Shown here one piece after another: positions 24,638 to 32,458 of a stretch of DNA of 36,511 nt. Made by a program: the position numbers and the translations under genes. The DNA comes from Bacillota bacterium (GTDB lineage: Bacteria; Bacillota; Dehalobacteriia; UBA4068): NCBI GenBank assembly GCA_024679955.1, contig JAILCQ010000010.1:79277-115787 (forward strand). The letters run 5' to 3'. Each line of letters starts with the position of its first letter. Within the stretch, counting starts at the first letter, position 1. Below the pieces are notes generated by a model. That model saw only the letters and a program-made list of their open reading frames with translations. It was not told where the DNA came from and searched no databases.

Positions 24638-25039
24638 ATGATCTCGACCCGTGGCCGGTATGCCATCCGCGTAATGCTGGATTTGGCCAAAAACAAAACC
24701 GGCGGCTATACGCCCTTAAAGGACATAGCCGCCCGGCAGGGTATCTCCAAAAAATATCTGGAAATCATCGTAAAAGAGATGGTGGCCGGCGGCCTGCTGG
24801 TGGGAGCCAGCGGCAAAGGCGGCGGTTATAAGCTCTGCCGGGAGCCCCAGGACTACACCATTGGCGAGATACTGGAACGGATGGAGGGTTCGCTGAATTC
24901 GGTGGCCTGCCTTTCCGCCGGCGCGGCGCCTTGCCCCCGAGCGATGGATTGCGAAACCCTTTCTCTCTGGGCAGAGTATGACAAGCTGACCCATGATTTT
25001 TTCTACGGCAAGCGCCTCAGCGACTTGTTGCAAAAATGA
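24638..25039 (+). CDS. iscR: Rrf2-family Fe-S regulator (IscR-like)
   Basis: A 133-residue Rrf2-family transcription factor. The N-terminal winged helix (MISTRGRYAIRVMLDLA...SKKYLEIIVKEMVAGGLL...GKGGGYKL) is followed by three cysteines, C91-x7-C99-x5-C105, which can ligate an Fe-S cluster in IscR-type members. It lies divergent from iscS-iscU and upstream of the cysteine genes, so it is expected to sense Fe-S or cysteine status and repress iscSU. A CymR-like role over cysteine genes is an alternative, but CymR lacks the three cysteines. Confidence 0.9.
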   Translation: MISTRGRYAIRVMLDLAKNKTGGYTPLKDIAARQGISKKYLEIIVKEMVAGGLLVGASGKGGGYKLCREPQDYTIGEILERMEGSLNSVACLSAGAAPCPRAMDCETLSLWAEYDKLTHDFFYGKRLSDLLQK

Positions 25040-25117: not shown

Positions 25118-25146
25118 TTGACAAAACAAGCGGCATATGTTATAAA
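25118..25146 (+). promoter_or_regulatory. Promoter of the cysteine operon
   Basis: TTGACA (25118-25123), 17-bp spacer, TATAAA (25141-25146). It predicts transcription from about 25153 and a leader of about 255 nt before the CMD gene at 25410. The leader holds a uORF and a terminator-like hairpin, but no T-box signature (no AGGGTGGNACCGCG-like sequence). Confidence 0.8.
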
Positions 25147-25200
25147 CATATTAAACCACTATGTTTATTCCAGCGATTATGATTTGAGCGGGAGGCTGTT

Positions 25201-25284
25201 ATGAAAAGGGAGATCTGCAGCGGTATTCGCATATGTTGTCCCATGGGCCGGAAACGGTGCATGCGCTTTGCCGTACCCGTTTGA
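25201..25284 (+). CDS. Cys-rich 27-residue leader peptide (candidate attenuator uORF)
   Basis: A 27-codon ORF with a strong GGAGG (25191-25195), 5 bases before ATG. The peptide starts MKREICSGIRICCPMG and has four cysteines (codons 6, 12, 13 and 20), about 15% Cys. It is too short for ordinary gene finding. It ends 23 bases before a GC-rich hairpin plus T-rich tract, and all downstream genes concern cysteine. A stretch in the uORF, CCGGAAAC (25248-25255), can pair with the right arm of that hairpin (GTTCTCCGG, 25324-25332) with a single bulge, so it could act as an antiterminator. The role is inference; the ORF, Shine-Dalgarno and Cys codons are directly visible. Confidence 0.6.
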   Translation: MKREICSGIRICCPMGRKRCMRFAVPV

Positions 25285-25307
25285 GATCTCTGTTTGCCTG
25301 TATGCAG

Positions 25308-25342
25308 CCGGAGAGCCCGATGGGTTCTCCGGTTATTTGTTT
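25308..25342 (+). terminator. Attenuator-like hairpin before the CMD gene
   Basis: An 11-bp stem with one G-T wobble (25308-25318 with 25322-25332; arm CCGGAGAGCCC), a three-base loop, then TTATTTGTTT (25333-25342). It looks like an intrinsic terminator inside the 5' leader, between the Cys-rich uORF and the first enzyme gene. CTTTGCC in the uORF (25266-25272) is also complementary to GGCAAAG (25343-25349) just beyond it. Confidence 0.6.
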
Positions 25343-25409: not shown

Positions 25410-25964
25410 ATGGCCAGAGTAAAACTTGTAGAGCAAAACCAGGCAAAAGGCGCGGAAAAGGAACGCTATGACGAACTGGCGGCAAGAAACGCCGTCACCA
25501 ATATGAAAAAGGGACTTTTGAACGACGCAGCCACCTACGACGCCTATATGGCCTGGTACACCTCCTGGAACCGGCTGGTAGAGGTGGTCGGGCAGAAGGA
25601 CGCCATCCTCTATGCCCACGCCATTTCCACCACCAATTCCTGTCAGCTTTGTTCCCTGTTCTTTATCAGCGATGTAAGAGGCCTGGGCCTGGATCCGGAA
25701 AATCTGCACTATGACGAGAAAGAACAGGTCTTGACCGAGTTGGCGCAGGCGATCGTCAAGAACCCCACCGCCGTCCCGGACGAACTCTTTGACCGGTTGA
25801 GAAAGTTCTTTGACGACAGGGAGATCGTGGTGATCGTAGGCTTCGCCGGTCAGATGATCGCCACCAACAATTTCAACTCCGTGTTGAGAATCGATGTGGA
25901 CCAGCGCCTGCTGCCGCTGCTGGATCAGTTCAAACCCGCCATATGGAGAGACTCTATACAATAA
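25410..25964 (+). CDS. Carboxymuconolactone decarboxylase / AhpD-like family protein
   Basis: A 184-residue helical protein of the CMD/AhpD family, with the redox motif C78-x2-C81 (STTNSCQLCSLFF) preceded by AHAIS, the usual context of the active-site dithiol and general base. AhpD-like members are thiol peroxidases or peroxidase partners. The position before cysK-cysE suggests a job in thiol or peroxide handling linked to cysteine synthesis; that is inference. The ATG at 25410 has AAAAGGAG close upstream. The frame extends back to 25233, but that part overlaps the leader hairpin. Confidence 0.8.
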   Translation: MARVKLVEQNQAKGAEKERYDELAARNAVTNMKKGLLNDAATYDAYMAWYTSWNRLVEVVGQKDAILYAHAISTTNSCQLCSLFFISDVRGLGLDPENLHYDEKEQVLTELAQAIVKNPTAVPDELFDRLRKFFDDREIVVIVGFAGQMIATNNFNSVLRIDVDQRLLPLLDQFKPAIWRDSIQ

Positions 25965-25984
25965 CGCCAAAGGAGATTTTACCG

Positions 25985-26047
25985 ATGTCCCATATAAAAA
26001 AACGATGTTGCCCGGATGAATCGTTTGAATGCCATATGCTGTTTTAG
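25985..26047 (+). CDS. Second Cys-rich 20-residue uORF, directly before cysK
   Basis: A 20-codon ORF with AAAGGAG ending 9 bases before ATG 25985. It contains adjacent Cys codons 8-9 (KKRCCPDE) and a third Cys (FEC), so 3 of 20 residues are Cys. It lies between the CMD gene and cysK and stops 34 bases before the cysK start. AAACGAT/ATCGTTT can form a 7-bp hairpin around the Cys-Cys codons, but no clear terminator follows, so any control would be translational or by stability. It could be a chance ORF; the Shine-Dalgarno and Cys bias argue against that. Confidence 0.5.
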   Translation: MSHIKKRCCPDESFECHMLF

Positions 26048-26081
26048 AATTCAATCCATCATGCATTAGGAGGGAAACATC

Positions 26082-27014
26082 ATGTCTAAGATCTATACAT
26101 CCGTCGATCAACTGATCGGCCATACACCGCTGCTGGAACTGACCCATATCGAGAAAGAAGAAGGGCTGGCCGCCAAGCTTTTGGCCAAGCTGGAATATCT
26201 GAACCCCGCCGGTTCCGTGAAAGATCGTGTGGCCAAGGCCATGATCGATGACGCCGAGGCCAAAGGCCTGTTGAAAGAGGGCTCCGTCATCATTGAGCCT
26301 ACCTCCGGCAACACGGGTATCGGTCTGGCCGCCGTGGCGGCGGCTCGAGGCTATCGCCTCATCATCGTCATGCCGGAAACCATGTCAGTGGAGCGGCGCA
26401 TACTGATGAAAGCCTTTGGCGCGGAACTGGTGCTTACCGAGGGCAGCAAAGGGATGAAGGGCGCCATCGCCAAAGCGGATGAATTGGTAAAGACCATTCC
26501 CAACGCCTTTATTGCCGGCCAATTCGTCAATCCCGCCAACCCCGCTGTCCACAAAGCGACCACAGGCCCGGAAATCTGGGCGGACACCGATGGCAAGGTG
26601 GATATTTTTGTGGCGGGCGTTGGCACCGGCGGCACCATCACCGGCACGGGCGAATACCTGAAAGCGCAGAATCCCTCTGTTCGGATCGTAGCCGTGGAAC
26701 CGGCCGATTCGCCTTTCCTTTCCAAGGGGATCGCCGGCGAGCATAAGCTCCAGGGCATCGGAGCGGGATTTGTGCCCGATGTGCTGAACACGGACGTATA
26801 CGATGAAATCATCACGGTAACGACTGAAGACGCCTTTGCGGCAGGGAGAAAAGTCGGTCAAGCCGAAGGAGTGTTGGTGGGGATCTCCGCCGGCGCGGCG
26901 GTATGGGCTGCCGTCCAGCTGGCCAAGCGCCCGGAGAACAAGGACAAAACCATCGTGGCGCTCCTGCCGGATACCGGCGACCGGTATTTGTCCACGCCGC
27001 TGTTTGCCGATTAA
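26082..27014 (+). CDS. cysK: Cysteine synthase A (O-acetylserine sulfhydrylase)
   Basis: A 310-residue PLP enzyme that makes L-cysteine from O-acetylserine and sulfide. It starts with IGHTPLLEL, has the PLP Lys47 in NPAGSVKDR, the substrate loop [11 protein letters not shown], the phosphate cup GTGGTITG, and ends with [19 protein letters not shown] (26068-26074) precedes the ATG. The next gene, serine acetyltransferase, starts one base after the stop, so the two make a compact cysKE pair that turns serine into cysteine. The product feeds IscS encoded 1.6 kb upstream. Confidence 0.96.
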
Positions 27015-27015
27015 T

Positions 27016-27894
27016 ATGGAACAGACCCTTTCCCTTTTGATCCGGCTGACAGCCCATGAACTGGAGCAAGAGGATGCGACCAATTGCAAGCGGCCTATCG
27101 ATTACTATGGCCTGCGGCAGGAGGTGGAGCATATCACCGATCTGCTGATCGACGCCATGTTTCCCCGCTTTGCCGCCGAACCGGTATCGAGAGAAGAACG
27201 TTTGCAGCAAGCGGTGGAAGTATTGAACGGCATCCTTACGCGCATCCCTTCCAAGCTGCGTCCAGAAGAAGTTGTCCTTGCTCTTCTGGAAAACCTGCCG
27301 GAGGTCAGGCGGCAGTTGCGAACGGATCTGACCGCCGCCTATCAGGGAGACCCCGCCGCCAAAAGCATAGACGAGGTCATCCTCTGCTACCCGGCCTTTA
27401 TGGCCATCAGCACCTATCGTTTGGCCCATGTTCTGTACCGGGTGGGGATGCCGCTTCTGCCCCGTATGATGACAGAATATGCCCACCGCCTGACGGGGAT
27501 CGACATTCACCCCGGGGCGGTTATCGGAGATTCTTTCTTTATCGATCACGGCACCGGCGTGGTGATCGGCGAGACCACCACCATCGGCTGCAAGGTCAAG
27601 CTGTACCAGCACGTTACCCTGGGCGCCAAGAGCTTTGCCGTGGGGCCCGACGGCAGCCTGGTCAAGGGGGTCAAGCGGCACCCCGATATCGGCGACCGGG
27701 TGGTGATTTATGCCGGCGCTACCATTCTGGGCGGCGAAACGCGCATCGGCAACGACTGCATCATCGGCGGCAGCGTGTGGCTGACCCATTCCGTGCCGGC
27801 CGGAAAGATGGTTTTGGCCAGAACAGCCGTTACGGATACGCCTTTGACCAAAGATATCATGGTCAATCCCATTCTGGATTGCGCCATGCTGTAA
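27016..27894 (+). CDS. cysE: Serine O-acetyltransferase (CysE/EpsC type)
   Basis: A 292-residue acetyltransferase that converts serine and acetyl-CoA to O-acetylserine, the substrate of CysK. A long helical N-terminal region leads to a left-handed beta-helix of hexapeptide repeats: IDIHPGAVIGDSFFIDHGTGVVIGETTTIG, then LYQHVTLGAKSF. The segment with the catalytic His (FIDHGTG) is present. Its length and insert match the EpsC-type serine acetyltransferases of Clostridia. No Shine-Dalgarno precedes ATG 27016; the junction TAATATG implies translational coupling to cysK. The C-terminus is short, so the usual cysteine-feedback tail may differ from E. coli CysE. Confidence 0.93.
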   Translation: MEQTLSLLIRLTAHELEQEDATNCKRPIDYYGLRQEVEHITDLLIDAMFPRFAAEPVSREERLQQAVEVLNGILTRIPSKLRPEEVVLALLENLPEVRRQLRTDLTAAYQGDPAAKSIDEVILCYPAFMAISTYRLAHVLYRVGMPLLPRMMTEYAHRLTGIDIHPGAVIGDSFFIDHGTGVVIGETTTIGCKVKLYQHVTLGAKSFAVGPDGSLVKGVKRHPDIGDRVVIYAGATILGGETRIGNDCIIGGSVWLTHSVPAGKMVLARTAVTDTPLTKDIMVNPILDCAML

Positions 27895-31658: not shown

Positions 31659-31735
31659 GGCGGTGTAGCTCAGAGGTTCAGAGCACTCGGCTCATACCCG
31701 GGGTGTCGTTGGTTCAATTCCAACCACCGCTACCA
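31659..31735 (+). tRNA. tRNA-Met (CAT)
   Basis: Full cloverleaf: acceptor GGCGGTG/CACCGCT (first pair G-T), D stem GCTC/GAGC, anticodon stem CTCGG/CCGGG with loop CTCATAC (anticodon CAT, 31693-31695), T stem GTTGG/CCAAC, and encoded CCA. The 5' part (GGCGGTGTAGCTCAG) resembles Bacillus elongator tRNA-Met. An initiator is unlikely because the three stacked G-C pairs at the anticodon are absent; a tRNA-Ile with lysidine-modified CAT cannot be fully excluded. Confidence 0.92.
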
Positions 31736-31739
31736 ATTT

Positions 31740-31816
31740 GGCGCGTTGGAGAAGCGGCTTAACTCACCAGCCTTTCACGCTGGCATTCATGGGTTCGAAT
31801 CCCGTACGCGTCACCA
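31740..31816 (+). tRNA. tRNA-Glu (TTC)
   Basis: Acceptor GGCGCGT/ACGCGTC (one G-T pair), D stem GAG/CTC, anticodon stem CCAGC/GCTGG with loop CTTTCAC (anticodon TTC, 31774-31776), T stem ATGGG/CCCGT, and encoded CCA. It follows tRNA-Met by 4 bp and is co-transcribed with it. Confidence 0.92.
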
Positions 31817-31917: not shown

Positions 31918-32026
31918 CCTCCTAATGTGCTAAACTATTCACAAGCCTGCCAGCTAGCAAATAATAAAAACATTAGGAGGCCATTCTATGCCAACGCAAC
32001 AGAATGATGTGAATAGTTTAGCACAT
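31918..32026 (+). promoter_or_regulatory. RBS-masking stem and competing 18-bp inverted repeat of tnpA
   Basis: CCTCCTAATGT (31918-31928) is perfectly complementary to ACATTAGGAGG (31970-31980), which contains the tnpA Shine-Dalgarno, so the leader can hide it. The adjacent 31925-31942 is also a perfect 18-bp complement of codons 8-13 of tnpA (32009-32026). The two pairings share bases and exclude each other. RBS masking is known for Salmonella IS200; the second pairing is a direct observation here. Confidence 0.8.
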
Positions 32027-32458
32027 ACAAAATGGAATTGCAAATATCATGTGGTATTTGCTCCGAAGTATCGAAGAAAGGTTTTCTATGAAGAGAAACG
32101 TGCGGATATACGAGAAATCTTTCGTACACTATGTCAGTGGAAAGGCGTAGAGATAATAGAGGGAGAGATATGCCCCGATCATGTGCATCTTCTACTAAGT
32201 ATACCGCCCAAAATGAGCGTTTCGGGATTTATGGGATATCTGAAAGGGAAAAGCAGCCTGATGATATTTCAGAAATATGGGAATATGAAATACGCATACC
32301 GAAACCACGAATTTTGGTGTAAGGGATATTATGTAGACACTGTGGGAAAGGACACAAAAGCAATCAAAACGTATATAGCAAATCAATTGAAACGGGATCG
32401 GGAAGCAGACCAGATAAGTATATTCGACCCCCAAGACCCTTTTAAGGGTAGCAGATAA
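31988..32458 (+). CDS. tnpA: IS200/IS605 family transposase TnpA
   Basis: A 156-residue single-stranded-DNA transposase of the Y1 HUH family. It has the full N-terminus (SLAHTKWNCKYHVVFAPKYRRKVF), the HUH motif CPDHVHLLLSIPP, the GYLKGKSSLMIF helix and the catalytic-Tyr segment CKGYYVDTVGKD, ending in a basic/acidic tail. All catalytic residues are present, so the copy looks active. AGGAGG (31975-31980) precedes ATG by 7 bases but lies in the masking stem. The sequence is clearly different from the decayed copy at 17.3 kb, so the two represent separate acquisitions. Confidence 0.93.
   Translation: MPTQQNDVNSLAHTKWNCKYHVVFAPKYRRKVFYEEKRADIREIFRTLCQWKGVEIIEGEICPDHVHLLLSIPPKMSVSGFMGYLKGKSSLMIFQKYGNMKYAYRNHEFWCKGYYVDTVGKDTKAIKTYIANQLKRDREADQISIFDPQDPFKGSR

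Follow-up and report, generated by a model that had tools for sequence, protein, structure and literature searches.

Candidate cysteine leader peptides have been proposed in Actinobacteria for the cys operon of Mycobacterium and Propionibacterium acnes and for cbs of Bifidobacterium (PMC1262725). In the passages of that paper that treat them, the Cys codons lie near the stop codon ahead of cysteine genes, no terminator hairpin was found, and the authors propose the involvement of Rho. In mycobacteria, the polycysteine short ORFs that precede cysteine genes have been tested (Canestrari et al. 2020, cited in PMC9094748 and PMC13236596). As outlined in the citing papers, these ORFs are leaderless, contain runs of Cys codons, precede sulfur-assimilation genes and respond to the cysteine supply. 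The classical attenuators—the his, trp and ilv leaders—consist of a short peptide with a Shine-Dalgarno (SD) sequence and codons of the pathway product, followed by a terminator and a mutually exclusive antiterminator, the choice between which is set by the ribosome position. Histidine leader peptides have also been reported in Firmicutes (PMC2965389), a group in which T-boxes are usual; these carry His codons, belong to the hisS/hisZ genes, and have terminators. Among open-licence papers, we found no description of Cys leader peptides before cysK in Clostridia.

Here we analysed a 36,511-nt stretch of a Bacillota contig (JAILCQ010000010.1), hereafter called the window, in which a short upstream ORF with three Cys codons (uORF2) lies directly before cysK. 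Judging from the sequence comparisons presented below, uORF2 is probably a cysteine-responsive leader peptide of cysK.

Organization of the CMD-cysK-cysE operon

The locus has sulfur-related surroundings, with nifU and nifS leftward, an Rrf2-family regulator gene, and then the CMD-cysK-cysE operon. Its features are as follows (window positions).

24638–25039, just upstream of the operon: Rrf2-family regulator gene
25118–25146, + strand: operon promoter, TTGACA-N17-TATAAA, from the sequence
25142–25168, + strand: perfect inverted repeat ATAAACATA-N9-TATGTTTAT, over and after the −10 element, from the sequence; candidate Rrf2-family operator
25201–25284, + strand: uORF1, peptide MKREICSGIRICCPMGRKRCMRFAVPV, with the SD GGGAGG at 25190–25195, from the sequence
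25306–25334, + strand: intrinsic-terminator-like hairpin, then ATTTGTTTGG, before CMD, from sequence and folding
25410–25964, + strand: CMD/peroxidase-related (AhpD-like) gene, TIGR01926 (below its cut-off), with homologues at 79–86% in rumen Clostridia
25969–25975, + strand: SD of uORF2, AAAGGAG, with a 9-nt spacer to the ATG, from the sequence
25985–26047, + strand: uORF2, peptide MSHIKKRCCPDESFECHMLF, 20 codons, from the ATG at 25985 to the end of the TAG stop at 26047, from the sequence
26003–26008, + strand: CGA-TGT (Arg-Cys) codon pair of uORF2, followed by TGC (the second Cys) and common to other cysK uORFs, from the comparison of cysK-upstream regions
26004–26013, + strand: GAUGUUGCCC, containing both Cys codons and able to pair with GGGAAACAUC at the cysK SD (9 of 10 pairs), from folding
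26068–26084, + strand: cysK SD and start, AGGAGGGAAACATCATG, from the sequence
26082–27014, + strand: cysK, cysteine synthase A, TIGR01139 (453 bits against a cut-off of 351)
27017–27894, + strand: cysE, serine O-acetyltransferase, TIGR01172 and EpsC (scores just under both cut-offs for the submitted frame)

The promoter at 25118 escapes a scan in which the sixth position of the −10 element must be T. The repeat at 25142–25168 is a candidate operator of the Rrf2/CymR type, to which the product of the Rrf2-family gene just upstream may bind. Similar repeats are located after the cysK promoter in other genomes (L168 and L172). An Rfam search of the whole window matched two tRNAs and nothing else; the leader thus has no Rfam match to a (tRNA-Cys) T-box. 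Elsewhere in the window, an IS200/IS605-family transposase gene (31988–32458) adjoins two tRNA genes (Met and Glu, 31659–31816).

uORF2 in the gap between CMD and cysK

Between the end of the CMD stop codon at 25964 and the start of cysK at 26082 lies a gap of 117 nt. The initial annotation placed in this gap a 20-codon ORF with its own AAAGGAG, a Cys-Cys pair, and a third Cys, and the sequence confirms this description. uORF2 occupies most of the gap: 20 nt separate its start from CMD, and 34 nt separate its end from cysK. The SD of uORF2 begins 4 nt past the CMD stop; the span from the uORF2 start to the cysK start is 25985–26081. The Cys codons are TGT at 26006, TGC at 26009, and TGC at 26030, and the first two form CGA-TGT-TGC (26003–26011) with the preceding Arg codon. 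An overlapping short ORF in another frame, MNRLNAICCFRIQSIMH (26016–26069), also contains Cys-Cys; as it has no SD, we took it as a chance ORF.

Could uORF2 itself be a chance ORF, in which the Cys codons and the SD coincide within 117 nt? Of 5000 dinucleotide-shuffled versions of the gap, 0.44% contained an ATG ORF of 8–45 aa with Cys-Cys, and 0.02% one that also had an SD and three or more Cys. Our genome-wide count rests on a pattern search of 1.92 Mb for GGAG-ATG-(0–30 nt)-TGY-TGY in frame, which gave 22 matches, nearly all within genes; about five of these are short ORFs that are plausibly intergenic, and uORF1 and uORF2 are two of the five. Coincidence is also opposed by the fact that the operon contains another Cys uORF, and by the codon pair CGA-TGT of uORF2, which is strongly enriched and frame-specific before cysK, as described below. 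The evidence in favour of chance comes from the relatives: most cysK regions have no such uORF, and in none of 80 CMD loci (79–86% identical) is CMD preceded by a Cys-Cys uORF with an ATG and an SD. We regard a chance origin as unlikely. The initial annotation had likewise judged two short Cys ORFs in one operon improbable by chance, and both the rarity among the gap shuffles and the recurrence of CGA-TGT upstream of cysK bear this out.

CGA-TGT uORFs before cysK in other bacteria

We examined 189 upstream regions of cysK relatives, mostly 60–83% identical to the cysK of the window. SD-led short ORFs that end in or contain Arg-Cys recur in them, including MNKKNMAWRC, MMNIIVRRIMRC, MTRYISGFRC, MKYPLPLRCRRC, MNIPVKYRRCCRCL, MVRKFKWLCSSGGLLRCWRQVI, MFDVKKISAKANTRCCHLAIEPQLNNCI, and others. 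An SD-led ATG uORF with an in-frame CGATGT is present in 13 of the 189 regions, as compared to a mean of 0.23 and a maximum of 2 in 60 shuffles. Such uORFs were seen in about a dozen other bacterial genera, and their presence is patchy, at about 7% of the sampled cysK genes, which weighs against a leader function. In a 170-region set, CGATGT ranked first among all 4096 hexamers for in-frame uORF occurrence, with 14 occurrences against 3 or fewer for the permuted hexamers. The hexamer is in frame 17 times, occurs once and three times in the other two frames, and is not found on the reverse strand. Moreover, 12 of the 19 Arg-Cys pairs are encoded by CGA-TGT, though CGA accounts for only 20 of the 91 Arg codons in the same ORFs.

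The motif was first noticed in an early subset of the cysK regions. CGATGT was present in 6 of the 40 regions fetched thereafter, and in none of the 19 regions added last, several of which are more distant. We also scanned 248 genomes for the pattern without using cysK as a criterion. Among the in-frame matches that were listed and checked, three lie outside genes (G367, G581, and G590), all directly before cysK, and three more lie inside or overlap other genes. In two within-genus pairs, MMNIIVRRIMRC/MMNIIMRRNIRC and MNRMYLCPAAGGLARC/MKQLCVCMAAGGLVRC, the RC-stop ending is kept while other residues are altered. Most CGA-TGT uORFs are located just after a promoter and an inverted repeat, within 150 nt of cysK. 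Cys-Cys uORFs before cysK are also enriched (7 of the 189 regions, against a shuffle mean of 1.4). At L346, L363, and L196, cysK is preceded by Cys-rich SD-led uORFs without CGATGT (MQTAISIVADKTLMNDSMRCCCRCLYCC, MKLAKSKQYNVVCCAYCCMRLFAMPKNSCQETVVLIPV, and MSQPNEAFKIVLCLCCSPV).

The initial annotation had proposed a search of related genomes for SD-led ATG ORFs with CCP upstream of cysK. SD-led Cys ORFs do recur there across genera, but the conserved feature is CGA-TGT, not CCP. We rejected CCP and CCPx5C as conserved motifs: among the in-frame matches listed and examined in 398 genomes, only in-gene ones were found besides the two in the window.

uORF2 is an SD-led ATG ORF of no more than 45 codons, starts within 300 nt upstream of cysK, and contains CGA-TGT in frame. 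Since its position, SD, and codon pair agree with those of the other uORFs, we assign it to the CGA-TGT class. It lacks one trait that is typical of the class, although not required for the count, namely a location directly after a promoter with an inverted-repeat operator. In the window, this place is taken by uORF1, and uORF2 sits inside the operon behind CMD, unlike the others, which speaks against the leader reading. The recurrence of CGA-TGT and its frame dependence nevertheless argue for a translated leader that reads cysteine.

The location behind CMD suits another explanation, in which uORF2 is translated but merely couples or re-initiates translation from CMD to cysK, while its cysteines sense nothing. 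The SD only 4 nt past the CMD stop and an ORF that bridges most of the gap are what such coupling would lead one to expect, and leader ORFs have been proposed to boost downstream translation through re-initiation (PMC4833913). We consider this explanation quite unlikely, as it leaves the three Cys in 20 codons and the recurrent CGA-TGT unexplained, and in other genomes the transcript opens with the uORF, so that no upstream gene is there for coupling. It is very unlikely that CGATGT is an RNA element (a protein-binding, cleavage, or pairing site) whose reading-frame position is incidental: the hexamer is conserved beyond the need for Arg-Cys (12 of 19 pairs) and has a downstream complement in the window and a perfect one in G590, but its frame dependence is strong (17 versus 4), it stands behind SD-led ATGs and in many cases ahead of a stop, and most leaders show no more complementarity than expected by chance.

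A general pairing of CGATGTTG with downstream sequence was rejected, as the summed z of 2.6 is largely due to G590. At that locus (L398), the uORF ends in CGATGTTGA, and CAACATCG, a perfect 8-bp complement, follows about 30–35 nt on, shortly before the cysK SD.

uORF1 and CMD

The initial annotation had noted that CCP also occurs in the first peptide. This is correct, and both peptides read C-C-P-x5-C; the shared CCP is weak evidence of kinship, as shuffled peptides match equally in 8–16% of trials. The DNA sequences of uORF1 and uORF2 do not align with each other, and we rejected the homology of the peptides, because their alignment is not significant against shuffled peptides. uORF1 contains Cys-Cys and lacks CGA-TGT.

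An attenuation mechanism before CMD, as initially suggested, gained no support from folding. A strong terminator hairpin is present at 25306–25334, and its stem forms with P of about 1 at every simulated ribosome position, while an antiterminator competing with it was found at none of these positions. uORF1 thus has the terminator of a classical attenuator without the alternative structure that the ribosome position would select.

CMD homologues with 79–86% identity are present in at least 80 rumen Clostridia genomes, and in several of these loci (within L028–L107) the gene is near rrf2, nifS, cysE, or cysK. Nearly all members of the window's own family, in contrast, lack the gene. This distribution and the neighbours of CMD suggest that it is a transferable gene linked to sulfur metabolism. 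In a genome of the same genus as the window, CMD is missing and the only cysK is a distant one; the CMD-cysK operon is absent from it. At one other locus, L064, CMD directly precedes a cysK, and the gap of 48 nt is too short for a uORF.

Possible route of the signal to cysK

How could uORF2 affect cysK? We infer that uORF2 is translated and that it responds to cysteine, and likewise the direction of its effect and the route of the signal, and propose the following sequence of events. Ribosomes starting at the uORF2 SD would soon meet CGA-UGU(-UGC). If charged tRNA-Cys runs short, they would pause there, the A site holding UGU and the P site CGA, which is decoded slowly. Such a pause would raise cysK expression, most likely via translation initiation or the fate of the mRNA a short way downstream. 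Pairing is possible between the Cys codons and the cysK SD region, and the paused ribosome would mask these codons. When Cys-tRNA is plentiful, the ribosome would finish and leave 34 nt before cysK, and the expression would stay low. In an enteric his-leader assay, CGA was decoded more slowly than CGU and CGC (PMC4046918), and because of this slow decoding, CGA before a Cys codon could sharpen the sensing.

Folding gave a mixed picture of this scheme, with no persuasive switch. The predicted helix between GAUGUUGCCC and GGGAAACAUC has an energy of about −12 to −13 kcal/mol, and a simulated waiting ribosome removes it (P falls from 0.60 to 0 in the longest stretch folded). The average exposure of the cysK SD shows no predicted rise upon simulated stalling, a rival helix can form with the first codons of uORF2, and structure is no better than in shuffles (z of +1.0). 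Nor is this pairing with the cysK SD a general trait of the other leaders. Between 25335 and cysK, no terminator was found on the + strand, so uORF2 is not a classical attenuator, and in most relatives the gap between the uORF and cysK is too short for a terminator. Neither an antiterminator for uORF1 nor an SD switch for uORF2 is supported by folding.

Two-tier control of the operon, by attenuation before CMD and by translational or stability control before cysK, had been suggested at the outset. The part that stands is that uORF2 exceeds chance and that Cys uORFs recur before cysK, while the analysis provided neither an antiterminator for uORF1 nor a terminator or a change of SD exposure for uORF2. 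Two-tier control in the uORF1-CMD-uORF2-cysK operon is plausible and unproven.

Relation to described leaders and significance

The mycobacterial polycysteine ORFs, as they are outlined in the citing papers, share with uORF2 a Cys-codon uORF before sulfur-assimilation genes. They differ in being leaderless and in their Cys runs, whereas the uORF2 class is SD-led, contains CGA-TGT, and occurs in other bacteria, with one copy, uORF2, inside an operon. The Actinobacteria leaders of PMC1262725 resemble uORF2 in having Cys codons before cysteine genes and no terminator hairpin, but they belong to another phylum, and the passages on them describe Rho and no CGA-TGT signature. In the Firmicutes His leaders, the likeness lies in leader-peptide control within a T-box group, and the codons, genes, and terminators differ.

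Tentatively, and with rather less confidence than in the leader function of uORF2, we propose that these uORFs may represent a widespread, previously undescribed class of cysK leaders in Clostridia-type bacteria. They would act as terminator-free codon-pair sensors, in which the P-site CGA primes the wait for tRNA-Cys at UGU, and in the window Cys uORFs would be stacked twice. In the literature that we found, leader-peptide control of cysteine synthesis is described for Actinobacteria; a recurrent SD-led Arg-Cys uORF before cysK elsewhere, among others in relatives of gut and rumen species, would represent a further, separate lineage of such control. As a conserved synonymous codon next to the one that senses, CGA would provide a clear natural example of a P-site codon that tunes amino-acid sensing. 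CGA-TGT also offers an easy sequence criterion for locating genes of this kind, which are missed in annotation owing to their size.
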